Shown here: one piece after another, positions 4,953 to 52,507 of the stretch
Layout: each line of letters begins with the position of its first letter
Numbering within the stretch: position 1 is the stretch's first letter
From: Thermoplasmata archaeon
GTDB lineage: Archaea > Thermoplasmatota > Thermoplasmata > Lutacidiplasmatales > UBA184
Direction of reading: 5' to 3'
Assembly: GCA_021828195.1 (NCBI GenBank)
Contig: JAKASQ010000001.1
Location: forward strand, 720,335 to 784,334
Length of the DNA stretch: 64,000 nt
Notes under the pieces: generated by a model
Seen by the model: the letters and a program-made list of their open reading frames with translations, nothing else
Told to the model about the DNA's origin: nothing
Database searches by the model: none
Translations under genes and position numbers: made by a program

Positions 4953-5501
4953 TCAGTCGTCCGGCCCATCGCGGCGCGTAAGCTCCTCGATCGTGTACTC
5001 GGCGAAGCCCCGGCCCCCCGATGCGCGGCGAACCATTCGCCCGATCCCCCCCCACTTGGCTCCCGCGGGGATCTCCCCGCTCGCGAGTCGGTCGAGGACG
5101 GCGCGAAAGCCTCGACGCTCCTCTTCGTACGGGTCATCCGAGCCCGACCAGGGTTGGCTCCCGCGCCGCACGTCGACCGTATCATCGCGGACAAGCCAGA
5201 TTCCCACGCGACGCGCGAGCGGCGTGGTACGCACGCGCATCAACCGCTCGGCGCTCGGTTCGGAGGCCACGGCGACCGCCACCCAGTCCCCCCAGGCTCG
5301 GCGGCGGAGTGCTTGGGCGAACACACGGGGCCCGTCGGCGAGCTTGAGTTCGACGAGACCGACCTCTTCGTTCCGCTTCGCGACCACGTCGAAGTAATCG
5401 CGCCCGTCCGGATCGATCCAGACTCGGTAGCCGAGCGCTTCGAGGTGGCGGCGCACCGGGCCCGCGAGCTCGTGCTCGGAGGCGGGCCGACCCCGGCTCA
5501 T
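4953..5501 (-). CDS. PD-(D/E)XK nuclease-like protein coupled to mutL
   Basis: A 182-residue protein starting with ATG at 5501, overlapping the mutL stop by ATGA, so it is translated behind MutL. Residues about 5-75 look like a restriction-endonuclease fold: a helix (GPVRRHLEALGYRVW), then DYFDVVAKRNEEVGLVELKL. The latter supplies the D...ExK pattern of a PD-(D/E)XK active site and resembles DUF2161-type phosphodiesterases. The C-terminal half (PYEEERRGFRAVLDRLASG to the end) looks like a winged-helix DNA-binding segment. Function is inferred from fold and operon position: possibly a strand-nicking or accessory factor in mismatch repair. Housekeeping chance linkage cannot be excluded. Confidence 0.75.
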   Translation of the reverse strand: MSRGRPASEHELAGPVRRHLEALGYRVWIDPDGRDYFDVVAKRNEEVGLVELKLADGPRVFAQALRRRAWGDWVAVAVASEPSAERLMRVRTTPLARRVGIWLVRDDTVDVRRGSQPWSGSDDPYEEERRGFRAVLDRLASGEIPAGAKWGGIGRMVRRASGGRGFAEYTIEELTRRDGPDD

Positions 5502-7279
5502 GGGCCGCTTCGCAGGAACCAGCGATCGAGCCGGGAGCGGGGAACCTGAAGGAGGACCGGGCGTCCGTGCGGGCAGGAGTAGACCGCCTCCGCGCCCTCG
5601 TACAGTGCGTCGAGGACCCGGGACATTTCCGCCGGGGCGACCGGGTCCCCGGCCCGGATCGCCGAGTGGCATGCGATGGACGCGGCCGTGCGTTCCATCG
5701 CCCCGTCGGGGACGGTCGGGCGCGCGCCCGCGGCGAGCTCGTCGAGCAGGGCGCTCAGTCCCTCGGTCCGGGCGCGCCCGCCCCTCCACGAGGGTACCGA
5801 CCGGAGCCGGTACGCGTCCCCTCCGAACGGTTCGACCGTGAAGCCGGCGGAGCGTACCGCTTCGGTGTGGGCAAGGAGGGCGGCGCGTTGCGTGTTCGTG
5901 AGGTGGATCGTGATCGGCTCAACGAGCTCCTGGCGCGCGAGCTTTCCCTCGCGGAGGAGCGCATCGTACAGGAGTCGTTCGCTCGCGGCGTGCTGATCGA
6001 CGAGCACCAGTCCATCCTCGCCCTCCGCAACCCAGTACAGCGACCCGACGCACCCGAGGAGGGTGAGCCGGGGCCGCCCGCCCGCCGATGCGGCACGTCG
6101 GGTAGGCGGCTCGGTGGTATCCAGCCGACGCTGCGGGGCCGGGCCCGACGCCGCCATCGCATCCCGGCGAGGAGGAGGTGGGAGCGAGGAGCGACCGACC
6201 CCGCGCGTCTCCACCAGAAAGTGCTGAGCCCGGGGCTTCGCGGACGGGTCCGGTGGCTCGGCCGGCGGCGGAGCCCCGATCAGGGCGTGTCGGACGGCGA
6301 GCCGAACGGCGTCGGCGATCTCGGCCTCCCGCGCGAATCGGACCTCCCGCTTCGTCGGGTGGACGTTCACGTCGAGACGCTCGGGCGGGAGCTCGAGGTG
6401 GAGCACACCGATGGGGTAGCGGGTCTTGGGAATGTAGTCGTGGTAGGACACTCGAACCGCCTGAGCGATCGCGCGTGCCTGAATCGTTCGCCCGTTCGCC
6501 GCGAGGTACAACCCTCGCGAGTGTCCGGCGGCCGTCGCGGGTCGCCCGAGCACGCCGCGGACGTGCCCGCCCCCGGGCAGGTCGCCGTCGACGGCGAACG
6601 ATTGGTGGAGGATCTCCGGTCCGAGCACGCGGGCGGCCGCATCCCGGAGATCGGAGGTGGCCGGATACGCGCCGACCTCGCGTCCGTCGGCCTCGATCCA
6701 GATGCCGACCGCGGGACGCGCGAGGTACAGGTGGTCGATCATGCGCAGGATCTCCACCTGCTCGGCCGCGGGCGCGTGCAAGAACTTCCGCCGTGCGGGA
6801 GTGTTGAAGAACAGATCCTCCACCTCGACGGTGGTCCCGACGGCGCGGCCCGCTTCGAACCGTCCAAGAATCTCGCCTCCCGTCACGGTGATCCCGGTGG
6901 CCGCATTCGCGCTCGCGGTGCGCGAGCGGATCCGGAACTTCGAGACGGAGGCGATCGCCGCGAGCGCCTCCCCACGGAATCCGAGAGTTCGGATCCCTTC
7001 GATCGATCCATCCGCGGCCAGCTTGCTCGTTGCGTGGCGCTCGATCGCGAGCTCGAGTTCGTCGGCGGGGATGCCTCCGCCATCGTCCGCGACTTCGATA
7101 CGTCGTAGGCCCCCTCCCTCGAGCCGAACGACGACCTCCTCCGCTCCGGCATCGACCGCGTTCTCGACCAACTCCTTCACGACGGACGCCGGCCGTTCAA
7201 CGACCTCGCCGGCCGCGATCCGTCGGACGGTCTCCGGGGCGAGGCGGCGGATGGGAGAGCGCGGTGCGGCCGCGCTCAC
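5498..7279 (-). CDS. mutL: DNA mismatch repair protein MutL
   Basis: A 593-residue GHKL ATPase with GTG start at 7279, overlapping the mutS stop (GTGA). N-terminal ATPase motifs are intact: ELVENAVDAGA (about residue 35), DDGGGI and GFRGEALAAI. The C-terminal domain has the metal-binding endonuclease signature of nicking MutL proteins: DQHAASERLLYD near residue 425 (the usual final Glu is Asp), ACHSAIRAGD near 534 and CPHGRP near 571. It therefore probably nicks DNA itself rather than depending on a MutH. MutS, MutL and the nuclease-like protein overlap in sequence, implying coordinated translation. Bacterial-type MutS/MutL is patchy in archaea and likely reflects old transfer. Confidence 0.96.
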   Translation of the reverse strand: MSAAAPRSPIRRLAPETVRRIAAGEVVERPASVVKELVENAVDAGAEEVVVRLEGGGLRRIEVADDGGGIPADELELAIERHATSKLAADGSIEGIRTLGFRGEALAAIASVSKFRIRSRTASANAATGITVTGGEILGRFEAGRAVGTTVEVEDLFFNTPARRKFLHAPAAEQVEILRMIDHLYLARPAVGIWIEADGREVGAYPATSDLRDAAARVLGPEILHQSFAVDGDLPGGGHVRGVLGRPATAAGHSRGLYLAANGRTIQARAIAQAVRVSYHDYIPKTRYPIGVLHLELPPERLDVNVHPTKREVRFAREAEIADAVRLAVRHALIGAPPPAEPPDPSAKPRAQHFLVETRGVGRSSLPPPPRRDAMAASGPAPQRRLDTTEPPTRRAASAGGRPRLTLLGCVGSLYWVAEGEDGLVLVDQHAASERLLYDALLREGKLARQELVEPITIHLTNTQRAALLAHTEAVRSAGFTVEPFGGDAYRLRSVPSWRGGRARTEGLSALLDELAAGARPTVPDGAMERTAASIACHSAIRAGDPVAPAEMSRVLDALYEGAEAVYSCPHGRPVLLQVPRSRLDRWFLRSGP

Positions 7280-9912
7280 GGCCCTCGCTCCGCGGGGTGA
7301 CTCTCCAGCGCTTTGCGGCGCAGCTCGGCGAGCTTCGCGAGGGCCTGCATCGGGGTCAGGTGGTCGATCTCGAGCCCCCGTAGCTCCTCGACGATCGGCG
7401 ACGGGAGTGCCGGGGCTTCGGCAGAGAGGAGCACCGCCTGGGTGTACTTTCCTACGCGGGTCGTGGTTCCGCGCGAGCGGCCCGGCAACTCCACGCCTTC
7501 CATCTCGAGTTGGCGGAGCAGCCGATCGGCCTCGTCGAGCACGTCCTTGGGTAGGCCGGCCAACCGCGCCACGTGCACGCCGTAGCTGCGATCCGTGCTT
7601 CCCGGCACGAGGTGGTGCAGGAAGACGATCCCTTCCGGCCGTTCTTGGACGGCGAGGTGGGCTTGACGAGCGGAGGAGAGCCCTTCGACGAGCTGGGTGA
7701 GCTGGTGGTAATGGGTCGCGAGCACGGCGCGGCACCGGGTGACATCGTGGAGGTGCCGGATCGTCGCCCACGCTACGGCGAGCCCGTCGAACGTGCTCGT
7801 TCCCCGACCGACCTCGTCGAGGAGGACCAACGATCGCTCGTTCGCGTTGTGCAGTATCTCCGCGACCTCGGTCATCTCCACCATGAAGCTCGACTTCCCC
7901 CGGCCGATCTCGTCCGTGAATCCCATACGGGTGAAGAGTCCTGAGACAAGCCCGACCCGGGCGTACTGGGCCGGTACGAGCGAGCCGGCTTGCGCGAGCA
8001 CCACGATCTGCCCGATCTGGCGCATGTACGTCGATTTGCCGGACATATTCGGGCCGGTAAGCACAAGGAGCCGCGCGCTCTGGGCATCGAGCTCGGTGTC
8101 GTTCGGTACGAACTGCTCGCCGAGCATCCGGTCGAGGACGGGGTGACGTCCGTCGCGAATGGTCAAGTTCGAGGAGAGGTCCACCGTGGGGCGGATGCAG
8201 CGGCGGCGCTCGCCGATGCGCGCGAAGGACAGCAGCGTGTCGAGCGTTCCCACCCCGCGCCCGATGCGGTGGATCGCCGGAACGTCGGCGTCGATCTCCG
8301 TGAGGAAGAGCTCCCACCGCGCGGCCTCCTCCGTCCGCAGGTGATCCCGTGCATCGAGGATACGGCGTTCGATCTCCTCGAGCGCTTCCGACGTGAACCG
8401 CTCCGCCTGCGCGACCGTTTGGCGTCGTCGGAAATGTCCCGGCACCTTCTCGAGGTGGGGGCGGGAGACCTCGAAGTAGTATCCGAACACCTGGTTGTAG
8501 CCGATCTTGAGCGTGCGGATCCCGCTCGCCTCCCGCTCCTTCGCTTCGAGCGCGGTCATCTCGTCGGTCGCGGCGCGTTCGGTGGCAATCCATCGATCGA
8601 TCTCGGGGACGTGCCCGAAGCGGAACAGCCCTCCGGCGCCTTCCGTCGCGGGAGGTTCGTCCGGCAGCGCCGAGCGCAACCGTTCGAGCAGGCGCATCGG
8701 CGGGACCATCGAGCGCACGACCGCTTCGAGGAGGGGAGGATCCGAGGGCACGAGGAGAGAGTCGGCGAGCGCGGCGGCCCGGGCCAATCCATCGCGCAGC
8801 GCGGCGAGCTCGGGTGGCCGCACGCGCCGGCCGGCTAGGCGCGAAGCAATCCGGGCGAGATCGGGGACCCCGGCCAGGGTCTGGCGGATCTCCTCGATCG
8901 CGGCTCCGCGGCGCCCGAGCGCCTCCACGGCGTCCTGACGCGCCACGATCGCTTCGAGATCGGCGAGGGGCGCGCGTAGCCAAAAGCCGAGGGTCCGCCG
9001 GCCGGCCGCGGTCACGGTCTCGTTCCACGCCGCGATGAGTGTGGCTCCGTGGGGATCCTCCGGGTTCATCGGTCGACTGATCTCGAGATGGCGAAGCGTC
9101 TTCGCGTCGAGGACGAGGTGGCGTCGCTCCCGTGCGCCGTCCACGACGGCGACGTACGGCAACAGCCGCGGCTGCGTCGAGCGGACGTAGGCCGCAAGGA
9201 TGCGATCCGCGACATCCGCGGACTCTCCGGCCTCACCTCCGCCACGAAGGCCCGCCGGGAGCTCCGTCGCGTCCATCGGCGGTGGGGCGATCTCGAGCCG
9301 TGCCCCGGGGAATTCCTTCCGAAACACAGCGGGAATCTCGGTTGATCGGCTCTCGCGGGGAGGGGGAGCGTAGAGAATCTCTCGAGGGGAGAACGGCGCG
9401 AGGGCCGTCGCGAGCCCGTCGACCCCTGGCCCATCCACCGGGCCGTGATGCCATTCTCCGGTGCTGATATCCACGAGGGCGTACGACCCCGGCCCGGAAT
9501 CGGCCGCCCGGGCCACGGCCAGAAAATTGTGCTCCGGACCGCCAAGGAGACCTTCCTCGACGACGGTTCCGGGGGTCACGACGCGGGTGACCTCGCGCCG
9601 CACGAGACCCTTCGCGAACTTCGCGTCCTCGACCTGGTCGCACAGCGCGACCTTGTACCCCTTCTTGACGAGCCGCCCGAGATACGTCTCGATCGCATGC
9701 TGGGGGACGCCGGCCATCGGCGTTCGCTTCCCCTGGGCGTCCGCCGAGCGTGCGGTCAGCACGACGTCGAGCTCCCGCGACAGGAGCCGCGCATCCTCCC
9801 CGAAGGTCTCGTAGAAGTCGCCGACCCGAAAGAGGACGAGATGACCGGGGTACCGGGCCCGGACGGCCTCGTACTGATCGAGGAGCGGGGTGCCGCTGCT
9901 CGGCTCCGACAT
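7276..9912 (-). CDS. mutS: DNA mismatch repair protein MutS
   Basis: An 878-residue mismatch-recognition ATPase. The mismatch-binding Phe-X-Glu motif is in GDFYETFGEDA (about residue 30). The lever, clamp and core domains follow, then the C-terminal ABC-type ATPase with Walker A GPNMSGKST, Walker B LLDEVGRGTS and a helix-turn-helix dimerisation tail. Size and motif set match MutS1. The ATG at 9912 is chosen because a TATA box sits 29 nt upstream, giving a leaderless message; earlier in-frame codons would run into tRNA-Ser. First gene of the mutS-mutL-nuclease operon. Confidence 0.97.
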   Translation of the reverse strand: MSEPSSGTPLLDQYEAVRARYPGHLVLFRVGDFYETFGEDARLLSRELDVVLTARSADAQGKRTPMAGVPQHAIETYLGRLVKKGYKVALCDQVEDAKFAKGLVRREVTRVVTPGTVVEEGLLGGPEHNFLAVARAADSGPGSYALVDISTGEWHHGPVDGPGVDGLATALAPFSPREILYAPPPRESRSTEIPAVFRKEFPGARLEIAPPPMDATELPAGLRGGGEAGESADVADRILAAYVRSTQPRLLPYVAVVDGARERRHLVLDAKTLRHLEISRPMNPEDPHGATLIAAWNETVTAAGRRTLGFWLRAPLADLEAIVARQDAVEALGRRGAAIEEIRQTLAGVPDLARIASRLAGRRVRPPELAALRDGLARAAALADSLLVPSDPPLLEAVVRSMVPPMRLLERLRSALPDEPPATEGAGGLFRFGHVPEIDRWIATERAATDEMTALEAKEREASGIRTLKIGYNQVFGYYFEVSRPHLEKVPGHFRRRQTVAQAERFTSEALEEIERRILDARDHLRTEEAARWELFLTEIDADVPAIHRIGRGVGTLDTLLSFARIGERRRCIRPTVDLSSNLTIRDGRHPVLDRMLGEQFVPNDTELDAQSARLLVLTGPNMSGKSTYMRQIGQIVVLAQAGSLVPAQYARVGLVSGLFTRMGFTDEIGRGKSSFMVEMTEVAEILHNANERSLVLLDEVGRGTSTFDGLAVAWATIRHLHDVTRCRAVLATHYHQLTQLVEGLSSARQAHLAVQERPEGIVFLHHLVPGSTDRSYGVHVARLAGLPKDVLDEADRLLRQLEMEGVELPGRSRGTTTRVGKYTQAVLLSAEAPALPSPIVEELRGLEIDHLTPMQALAKLAELRRKALESHPAERGP

Positions 9913-9936
9913 CAGAGGAGGGCGACGAGGGCGTGC

Positions 9937-9944
9937 GATATAAC
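9937..9944 (-). promoter_or_regulatory. TATA box for mutS operon
   Basis: GTTATATC on the minus strand, centred 29 nt upstream of the MutS ATG; predicts a leaderless transcript. Confidence 0.65.
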
Positions 9945-9974
9945 CCGTCGTGAGGGAGCGCGAAACGGGAAGGG

Positions 9975-10057
9975 CGCTGAGGGGGAGATTTGAACTCCCG
10001 AGGCGAATCGCCACCAGTTTTCAAGACTGGCGCCTTCCCGGGCTAGGCTACCTCAGC
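9975..10057 (-). tRNA. tRNA-Ser(UGA)
   Basis: An 83-nt tRNA. Acceptor stem GCTGAGG/CCTCAGC with discriminator G; D arm GCC/GGC; anticodon arm CCAGT-CTTGAAA-ACTGG (anticodon TGA); a long variable arm (GGCG/CGCC) typical of serine; T arm GGGAG-TTCAAAT-CTCCC. No intron, and the 3' CCA is not encoded. Confidence 0.96.
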
Positions 10058-10126
10058 GCGGCCGTCGAGGAACCGACGCCGACGGCATAAACGTATGGTC
10101 CCAGGGCCCGCGCTCGGGCCGCTAGA

Positions 10127-10228
10127 TGCAGGTGCCGGGAGCTTCGCCGCGGATCGATCCCGATCCGCCGTTTCGAACCCGGGCGGTCAGCTTGGAAGGC
10201 TGACATCCTACCACTAGATTACACCTGC
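10127..10228 (-). tRNA. tRNA-Gly(UCC) with T-loop intron
   Basis: A 102-nt gene. Acceptor GCAGGTG/CACCTGC with discriminator A; D arm ATC..GAT; anticodon arm TCAGC-CTTCCAA-GCTGA (anticodon TCC); T stem CCGGG/CCCGG. The T loop reads TTCGAA, is interrupted by 31 nt (10141-10171), then resumes with T. Removing the insert leaves a standard TTCGAAT loop and a 71-nt mature tRNA. The interruption forms a clean bulge-helix-bulge. CCA is not encoded. Confidence 0.93.
10141..10171 (-). other. Non-canonical tRNA intron in T-loop of tRNA-Gly
   Basis: A 31-nt intron. In the precursor, exon bases TTCG pair with intron bases CGAA (4-bp central helix), flanked by 3-nt bulges AAA and GCT; cleavage after the second bulge base on each side restores TTCGAAT. 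An internal 8-bp hairpin (GCGGATCG/CGATCCGC, loop GGAT) stacks on top. This is the strict bulge-helix-bulge substrate of the archaeal splicing endonuclease, at T-loop position about 59/60 instead of the canonical 37/38. Confidence 0.9.
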
Positions 10229-10268
10229 ACGGCTTTGCGCGGGCGCCCCGAGGACGGGGGTCGTATCG

Positions 10269-10913
10269 TTAATGCTTTGCCTTCGGACCGGCACCCGTCG
10301 AGGTCGCGCGACCGGGCCCTTTCGCGGGGGGGCTCGAGGGAGGCCCCTTGCGCGCGCGCCCCGGCTCGCTCGCCGCGCTCGCGTTGAGGTCGATCAGCGC
10401 GACGCGCTCGAGGACCAGACCCTCCCAGGAGCCCGGCGCGACGACCGCTCGATCCGCCGCCCCGATCCCCAACCGTTCGAGCGTCGCCTCGCTCGGAGGA
10501 ACCGGGTAGGCGTCCGGGTCGAGAATCAGGCCGAAGCGCTCGAGGAGCGGACCCGGCTCGAGCGGACGCTCTCCCACGAGCACGAATCGCTCGGTATCCG
10601 CGGCCACGCCGACCTTTGCGAGGGCGCGACCGAGCTGATCCTCCCCGGCGACGTAGAGCGCGAATTCCGCTCCTCGGTCCCGCAGGCGCGACTCGCCGTG
10701 CTCGCGCGATCGGCCGAGATGCGCCCACGCCGAGAGGAGATGGCGTTCCCCCGCGATCGCACGAGCGTCGAACAGGGCCACCAGCGCGTCGGATTCGAGT
10801 GCGAGGGCCCGCAAGGTCCGGATTATCGCGCCCGCATCGGGCTCCGCGCTTCCGGCCATTCGCGCCCCGACCGCCCAGAGCTTGCGATGCTCGGCGGTGG
10901 GTAGCGGAGCCAT
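10269..10913 (-). CDS. cgi121: KEOPS complex subunit Cgi121
   Basis: A 214-residue protein of the CGI-121/TPRKB family. The core has the family pattern: ALFDARAIAGERHLLSAWAH, then GESRLRDRGAEFALYVAGED and GVAADTERFVLV. KEOPS makes the t6A modification at position 37 of ANN-decoding tRNAs, and Cgi121 binds tRNA and regulates the Bud32 subunit. The C-terminal 50 residues (rich in Ala, Pro, Arg, Lys) extend past the usual end of the domain and look disordered. It follows the hydrolase gene by 11 nt in the same orientation and lies next to the tRNA pair. Other KEOPS subunits are not in the window. Confidence 0.82.
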   Translation of the reverse strand: MAPLPTAEHRKLWAVGARMAGSAEPDAGAIIRTLRALALESDALVALFDARAIAGERHLLSAWAHLGRSREHGESRLRDRGAEFALYVAGEDQLGRALAKVGVAADTERFVLVGERPLEPGPLLERFGLILDPDAYPVPPSEATLERLGIGAADRAVVAPGSWEGLVLERVALIDLNASAASEPGRARKGPPSSPPAKGPGRATSTGAGPKAKH

Positions 10914-52434: not shown

Positions 52435-52507
52435 AGCCGCGGGAGGGGTTCGAACCCTCGACCTGCTCCTTACCAAGGAGCCGCTCTGCCAGCTGAGCCA
52501 CCGCGGC
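52435..52507 (-). tRNA. tRNA-Thr(GGU)
   Basis: A 73-nt tRNA without intron. Acceptor GCCGCGG/CCGCGGC with discriminator T; D arm GCTC..GAGC; anticodon arm GCTCC-TTGGTAA-GGAGC (anticodon GGT); T arm GAGGG-TTCGAAC-CCCTC. CCA is not encoded. Confidence 0.96.

Follow-up and report, generated by a model that had tools for sequence, protein, structure and literature searches.

One of the closest described systems is that of Methanopyrus kandleri, a hyperthermophile. Like the organism described here, this euryarchaeon has multiple-intron tRNA genes and a splicing endonuclease (EndA) without CSL and ASL; its EndA is a heterotetramer of two subunits and the case is that of one species (PMC4033280, PMC6379350; these and all other papers are cited for the parts that were available), whereas in the case reported here the enzyme is a single two-domain chain, the introns extend over a whole soil family, and the T-loop is strongly favored. 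Methanopyrus and Methanothermobacter are the euryarchaea named as possessing multiple introns (PMC4033280), and the reviews, as far as available, tie introns in the T- and D-loops mainly to endonucleases of the crenarchaeal or ARMAN type, with Methanopyrus as an exception among euryarchaea, whose introns they portray as few and canonical. Position 59/60 is among the known noncanonical intron sites (PMC4090602), and 673 of 2,206 introns in 217 archaeal genomes were noncanonical (PMC8450103). Intron-bearing tRNA genes account for about 8% in the Euryarchaeota, at the canonical position only, and for about 48% in the Crenarchaeota (PMC4090602). The introns described below share with the known 59/60 introns the position, the bulge-helix-bulge (BHB) splice sites, the short length, and the restoration of the tRNA on removal. 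In contrast to the Euryarchaeota of that survey (less than 10%, canonical only), they occur in a member of the Thermoplasmatota, in which 20 of the 43 tRNA genes found are interrupted and 18 of 22 introns are noncanonical.

An expansion of introns is known from the Thermoproteales (Sugahara 2008 and Fujishima 2010, as cited in PMC4033280, PMC4090602, and PMC8450103), which also have many tRNA genes with noncanonical introns, some of them interrupted twice; they differ in the enzyme architecture, and here 14 of the 22 introns are located at one site and have no detectable similarity to each other. Atabeyarchaeia and Freyarchaeia are likewise soil archaea with abundant noncanonical tRNA introns, but belong to the Asgard archaea and have 92 to 95% of these genes interrupted (PMC11291895), compared to about 47%, dominated by the T-loop, here. 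With respect to the enzyme, the alpha-prime-2 EndAs of Archaeoglobus, Thermoplasma, and Ferroplasma (1r0v, 2gjw, 2ohc) are also single chains of two endonuclease-like repeats with a conserved Tyr/His/Lys set in the second (PMC8707768, PMC6379350), while the enzyme here serves a genome rich in T-loop and D-loop introns. The paper on the Lutacidiplasmatales used tRNAscan-SE 2.0.5 with option -A and reports coverage of the full set of 20 amino acids for AcS3-62; in its main text, as available, “intron” and “splicing” do not occur (PMC9287336). A search, mostly outside subscription journals and excluding preprints, found no report of such a set of tRNA introns in Thermoplasmata or metagenome-assembled archaea. 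The kind of intron and its position are already known; lineage and scale are new.

The window, which is the whole stretch of 64,000 nucleotides that was analyzed, has a GC content of 67.6% and is part of a genome of 1.62 Mb in seven contigs (93.6% complete). Judging from the named records described below and from the kinship labels of the search tool, the host is probably a Lutacidiplasma-type archaeon of the Thermoplasmatota; NCBI places the genus within the Candidatus Lutacidiplasmatales. An earlier note had read from the window that the T-loop of a tRNA-Gly(UCC) gene is split by an intron of 31 nt. Its coordinates were exact, and the strand, which it had not given, is the minus strand. The features are as follows.

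10127 to 10228, minus strand: tRNA-Gly(UCC) gene with T-loop intron (read from the sequence, the fold, and in silico splicing).
10172 to 10228, minus strand: 5′ exon, tRNA positions 1 to 59, terminating in TTCGAA (near-invariant across 36 sequences of the genus).
10141 to 10171, minus strand: 31-nt intron at 59/60, with predicted cuts at 10172/10171 and 10141/10140 (fold and covariation).
10127 to 10140, minus strand: 3′ exon (T60, CCCGG, CACCTGC, A73).
10140 to 10177, minus strand: BHB (computed fold).
10264 to 10278, minus strand: AT-rich, promoter-like stretch AAAGCATTAACGATA, 36 to 50 nt upstream of G1.
9972 to 10058, minus strand: tRNA-Ser(UGA), intact neighbor, 68 nt downstream of the Gly gene (ARAGORN, Rfam).
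52435 to 52507, minus strand: tRNA-Thr(GGU) with intact T-loop, for comparison (ARAGORN, Rfam).

The acceptor stem of the Gly gene pairs 10228-10222 with 10134-10128, followed by A73 at 10127, and the T-stem pairs CCGGG (10182-10178) with CCCGG (10139-10135). Between the strands of the T-stem, the T-loop is composed of TTCGAA (10177-10172), the 31-nt insert (10171-10141), and T60 at 10140. The minimum free energy fold of 10182-10135 as RNA, (((((((((...(.((((((((....)))))))).)))))...))))), bore out the BHB that had been proposed: the 5-bp T-stem runs straight into a 4-bp central helix of TTCG (10177-10174) and CGAA (10146-10143), flanked on opposite strands by a 3-nt bulge each, 10173-10171 (AA|A) on the 5′ side and 10142-10140 (GC|T) on the 3′ side. 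The inner hairpin (10170-10147) consists of 8 bp plus one isolated pair. Taken alone, this fold is only moderately unusual, with a z value of −2.18 for the energy and 7 of 200 shuffled sequences equally stable.

Cutting after the second base of each bulge gave a standard tRNA back in silico, which ARAGORN called as tRNA-Gly(tcc). As predicted, the unspliced gene escaped gene finders, both ARAGORN and Rfam at its gathering threshold, with 25.4 bits in the genome-wide tRNA search compared to a cutoff of 29. When the window was scanned for T-stems with a BHB insert, two of four candidates yielded a tRNA on excision, the Gly gene and, spuriously, a stretch next to the intact tRNA-Thr; 40 dinucleotide shuffles of the window gave 73 candidates, none of which yielded a tRNA. 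One full-length Gly(UCC) match, the sole copy found, is present in the genome, no other intact gene having been found, and GGA codons are in use, 13 in the gene for CDC48 and 18 in that for MutS. The tRNA-Gly(UCC) gene is thus apparently single copy and needed. The original observation was correct, and the gene looks functional by the available sequence tests.

Upstream of the gene, the AT-rich stretch is located slightly further out than the point at which AT content peaks on average for tRNA genes in this genome. For 8-nt windows beginning 33 to 36 nt before the gene, the mean AT peak was 0.54 in the genes with a T-loop intron (n = 14) and 0.59 in 26 others; the best upstream 8-nt window contained at least six A/T in 8 of the 14 and 16 of the 26, respectively, compared to 12% of random positions. 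The pair of tRNA genes is situated directly 5′ of the gene for MutS, and the next frame downstream appears MutL-like by eye (7276-10014 and 5498-9028, both on the minus strand). In the 16 loci from named organisms introduced below, a matching tRNA-Ser always starts within 360 nt after the Gly gene.

The Gly gene is not a single case; the trait is common in the genome and in the family. A set assembled from all 41 tRNA matches of the genome and from matches of “R1,” a covariance model of the T-arm with a BHB intron at 59/60, comprises 14 genes that are interrupted at 59/60 by 26 to 38 nt: Gly(TCC), Asn, Arg(TCT), Arg(TCG), Glu(CTC), Ser(GCT), Ser(GGA), Ser(CGA), Ala(GGC), Asp, Gln(CTG), His, Leu(TAG), and Lys(TTT). 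After splicing, all 14 were called by ARAGORN with the expected anticodon, Leu(TAG) and Lys(TTT) having a complete 5′ half only once an insert in the D-loop was also excised. Both genes, Lys-UUU (L187) and Leu-UAG (L185), thus apparently contain a D-loop and a T-loop BHB intron. D-loop BHB inserts were also present in initiator Met and Arg(GCG), four in total, with boundaries less certain than those in the T-loop, as for Met, Arg, and Lys another excision ranked above the listed one that leaves an ordinary D-arm, and the excision for Leu(TAG) was picked by hand. Four anticodon-loop introns, in elongator Met, Tyr, Trp, and Leu(TAA), the last read by eye, complete the set of 22 introns in 20 of the 43 tRNA genes with an assigned anticodon (about 47%), a count that leaves out one degraded match; 18 of the 22 introns are noncanonical. 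This degraded match is a tRNA-Gly(GCC)-like copy (L031:1501-1573, which is G000:C1:85313-85385), the upstream sequence of which is nearly identical to that of an intact gene 4.2 kb away (C1:89549); it looks like a tRNA pseudogene or an integration scar.

For Asp, Asn, and His, the T-loop-intron genes are the only tRNA genes found, so that these amino acids would not be decoded unless the introns are spliced. If the organism lives as assembled, their removal must presumably be efficient. The tRNA search of this 93.6% complete assembly did not recover three members of the expected set, Pro(TGG), Pro(GGG), and Glu(TTC), which indicates that the genome or the search is incomplete. In the Rfam search, 11 of the 14 T-loop-intron genes were below the cutoff or not found, and the other three passed with a 3′ end cut or misplaced. 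In Glu-CUC (L028), ARAGORN and Rfam accept a false T-arm inside the intron, resulting in a wrong 3′ end, which is a miscall rather than a miss.

The splice sites follow a rule. A scan of 181 loci recovered 66 distinct sequences with a T-loop intron, 43 of which were labeled Gly(TCC), counting one excision per T-arm. When exon base 57 was G, the intron base facing it was C in 52 of 52 sequences (one of these rows, L048, is spurious), and when it was A, the facing base was G in 14 of 14. The count does not include six genes of the host, those for Glu, Arg(TCT), Arg(TCG), Asp, Gln, and His, in at least some cases because an incorrect T-arm already satisfies ARAGORN in the unspliced sequence; read separately, Arg(TCG), Asp, and Gln have G57-C and Arg(TCT) and Glu have A57·G, while His is a true exception with A57 facing T. 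Among the 14 own introns, 7 have A57·G in place of the fourth central pair, Asn contains an internal mismatch, and 6 sites are full BHBs. The A·G end pair is systematic rather than a sign of decay, and most own sites are near-canonical BHBs in a noncanonical place.

Do these sites need a special enzyme? The genome contains a gene for RtcB and one for EndA (L174:365-1426), a single chain of 354 amino acid residues with two PF01974 domains. PF01974 was found in 55 of 61 relatives, including all 27 of high quality, and usually twice per frame; two such domains in a chain of about 290 to 370 residues, the C-terminal one carrying the Tyr/His/Lys set, are the feature of alpha-prime-2 enzymes. The best PDB match of the own EndA was 5x89 (E = 4.6e-30), in three stretches, followed by 1r0v and 2gjw of Archaeoglobus, which were collinear over residues 67 to 336. 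Y292, H300, and K331, which we take to be the catalytic residues, are invariant in an alignment of 27 class members. A catalytic role of the Tyr/His/Lys set of EndA is supported by PMC12397907, which also names Y160/K161 as ASL residues and K44-R46 as CSL residues. The matches to the ARMAN-2 and Aeropyrum enzymes begin at residues 163 and 47 of these chains and therefore just after the ASL and CSL residues, and the equivalent site in the own enzyme was deduced from these residue numbers in the PDB matches and in PMC12397907. At this site, the 27-member alignment contained no insertion that separates EndA of the family from that of its class relatives, and no conserved Lys was present in the equivalent stretch just before the YG motif of the catalytic unit, both by sequence only. 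The endonuclease architecture, the identification of which the earlier note had proposed as a check, is thus one chain with two domains and no CSL- or ASL-like loop by sequence.

That note had also deduced that the host endonuclease accepts noncanonical sites. The position is indeed noncanonical; a relaxed enzyme is not needed, however, as the site itself is a canonical BHB. Canonical BHBs are cleaved by all archaeal enzyme forms irrespective of the tRNA mature domain (PMC8707768), so that a location in the T-loop does not in itself call for a special enzyme. Bulge-helix-loop sites are also within reach of homodimers (PMC8707768; some of these sites according to PMC6379350), and minimal BHBs are cut at 30°C by the homodimer of Ferroplasma (PMC8707768). 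Alpha-prime-2 enzymes are classed as narrow, although EndA of Archaeoglobus can cut a bulge-helix-loop site in a full-length pre-tRNA (PMC6379350). Strict canonicity has to contend with A57·G in 7 of the 14 own sites while the alpha-prime-2 enzymes are classed as narrow (PMC6379350). The A57·G sites may or may not need a special enzyme. Alternatively, the host enzyme may have independently gained a broader specificity, which would have enabled the T-loop and D-loop introns. This is possible, albeit somewhat unlikely. The A57·G pair in half of the own introns, the G that faces A57 in all 14 sequences recovered, and the best PDB match 5x89, the heterotetrameric EndA of M. kandleri without ASL or CSL and classed as “constrained broad” (PMC6379350), would agree with it. 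The full BHBs at 6 of the 14 own sites do not, nor does the EndA sequence: compared to class members poor in T-loop introns, nothing is inserted at the CSL/ASL site, and a conserved Lys is absent there. A broad-specificity loop was not found by sequence. A wider reading, tentative and rather doubtful, is that a whole family of acid-soil Thermoplasmatota came to place introns regularly in the T-loop, and also in the D-loop, of tRNAs that it needs while keeping a two-domain euryarchaeal EndA without a CSL- or ASL-like loop, well beyond the Methanopyrus precedent. A57·G would then represent a BHB variant specific to the lineage and sensed by an enzyme feature so far unrecognized, and a selective pressure against integrating mobile elements may underlie the T-loop bias.

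R1 matched all 103 genomes of the family, covering all seven genera, with 2 to 11 matches per genome (E ≤ 0.001); these counts are lower bounds, the model missing the own Asn, Ser-CGA, and Gln introns and the 14-nt intron of G038. In the own genome, the 18 matches at E ≤ 10 comprised 11 T-loop introns, 6 that read as chance matches or intact arms, and one further match (L191). Among 389 genomes sampled from the phylum, 36 had a match: 23 members of the family, in which no genome lacks one, and 13 of the 366 others, with one or two matches each. No match was obtained in the three other genomes of the same order, albeit the short intron of G038 escapes the model. Ten of the 13 nonfamily genomes were checked in 11 stretches, 9 of which gave a tRNA after splicing while those of G088 and G103 did not. 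By reading, most of these cases are tRNA-Arg (TCT or CCG), several with an additional anticodon-loop intron that shifts the ARAGORN label to Trp or Gly. T-loop introns are few elsewhere in the phylum, and their frequent occurrence is seen in this family only. The statement of the earlier note that T-loop introns are best known from outside the Euryarchaeota agrees with the reviews (PMC4090602, PMC4033280).

The Gly(UCC) gene itself was also compared. G038, from another family (f3) of the same order, has one intron in the anticodon loop and another of 14 nt in the T-loop (L071), the latter with a full 4-bp central helix and no inner helix, a minimal version of the splice site. When inspected by eye in other families of this class, the gene was intronless in 10 genomes (G043, G044, G045, G048, G049, G050, G052, G056, G057, and G059) and had an anticodon-loop intron in four (G041, G047, G054, and G058); the match in G060 is tRNA-Gly(CCC). 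The gene of G042 (L074) has an intact T-loop and an odd 3′ acceptor strand: it seems to be broken or repeated after GCGCCT, and GGCGCCTGCA occurs again about 80 to 90 nt further on, possibly owing to an insert in the acceptor stem or to a scar left by integration.

Why the T-loop? According to Randau and Soll (PMC4033280, PMC3293823), such introns may be kept as a protection, breaking the 3′ half of the tRNA that integrases of archaeal viruses and plasmids use as att site. A search for integrases in five genomes gave 11 matches. Each genome had one strong match, presumably Xer-like, and the own genome and G017 had this gene only, which does not favor the idea. Among the tRNAs listed, four of the six non-Xer matches (G028:C14:21948, G028:C1:37224, G001:C24:107657, and G012:C57:12897) are about 0.1 to 0.5 kb from a tRNA with an intact T-loop (full-length Rfam match), as protection of the interrupted genes would predict; these are four cases only, and with about one-third of the genes interrupted, four of four would be expected by chance about one time in four by estimate. 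The other two non-Xer matches, both in G001, have no listed tRNA next to them. The integrase-family gene at G012:C57:12897 contains in-frame stops. Protection as the reason for retention is possible, though rather unlikely.

Recent spread of the introns by transposition between tRNA genes, as in the Thermoproteales, would explain the same position, the similar length, and the same BHB form in 14 genes, and is nevertheless quite improbable. The hairpin cores of the 14 own introns (91 pairs) had a mean similarity of 6.31 compared to 6.16 ± 0.17 with the rungs permuted; 20% of the permutations reached this mean and 33% reached the maximum of 12, so that no signal of recent transposition among the own introns was left. 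The Gly introns of congeners diverge fast (mean 7.29 over 34), and traces of an old transposition would therefore be erased.

This divergence is largely that of the intron. A full-length Gly match was present in 34 of the 36 genomes of the same genus, the two misses being 56 to 57% complete; in G033, with weak partial matches only, inspection of locus L066 found no Gly arm there, and L097 is a fragment at a contig end. From 39 loci tried, 36 arms of 35 genomes were extracted, as two loci yielded none and one arm belonged to another family. The exons were near-invariant, while the introns, 28 to 34 nt in length, diverged widely. All four standard central pairs were present in 33 of the 36 arms and three pairs in the others, including one TTCA/GGAA. 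In a set of 35 sequences, without the near-duplicate L032 and without L071, hairpin rungs 2 to 8 paired at a higher rate than in shuffled pairings; for no rung did more than 0.4% of 2,000 shuffles reach the observed value, a percentage that is not a probability, as the shuffles ignore relatedness. Rung 1 barely varies (C-G in 34 of 35) and is hence uninformative. Searching with a pattern from the 5′ exon returned 16 named records, which are without exception metagenome-assembled genomes of Thermoplasmata and include Candidatus Lutacidiplasma silvani AcS3-62; all had the T-loop insert, with four central pairs in 12 and three in 4, and some are evidently the same genomes as in the congener set, so that both sets are not independent. 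The alignment of sister genomes that the earlier note had suggested thus revealed a conserved insert, near-invariant exons, and a covarying hairpin, and no gene without the insert, which would have pointed to an error at this site, was seen within the genus.

Position 33 in the anticodon loop is C in 26 of the 36 Gly(UCC) arms of the genus (for instance, L034, L042, and L054). U is near-universal at this position in tRNAs and is retained in the own gene.

A decayed pseudogene or an assembly artifact with an intact gene elsewhere, which could be suspected from the failure of the gene finders at the Gly locus and from an assembly in seven contigs at 93.6% completeness, is extremely improbable, given the near-invariant exons, the compensatory changes within the insert in other genomes, the lack of a second full-length copy in the genome, and the same arrangement in 13 other own tRNA genes and, by R1, in all 103 family genomes.

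The insert is very probably a genuine archaeal BHB intron at 59/60 of an apparently single-copy and needed tRNA-Gly(UCC), spliced by EndA and RtcB, and one of a family-wide set. The Gly gene would be transcribed from an external TATA-type promoter, so that the interrupted T-loop would be harmless to transcription. In the nascent RNA, the T-stem would stack on the 4-bp helix formed by the exon UUCG with the intron CGAA, an EndA-type endonuclease, probably assembled from the two-domain chain, would cleave in both 3-nt bulges, and RtcB would ligate the exons. The T-arm should form after ligation, followed by end processing and T-loop modification. The introns may have been gained, or have multiplied, close to the root of the Lutacidiplasma-type family and retained because near-canonical BHBs would be cleavable by an ordinary euryarchaeal enzyme.

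For the family, this means that tRNA annotation is unreliable with finders that lack a model of the T-loop intron, because 11 of the 14 T-loop-intron genes fail in Rfam and 3 receive a wrong 3′ end. The interesting part is the abundance of such introns in a euryarchaeal lineage with an EndA lacking the known broad-specificity loops. As every one of the 103 family genomes contains T-loop introns by R1, a model of coevolution of enzyme and introns becomes testable in this soil family.
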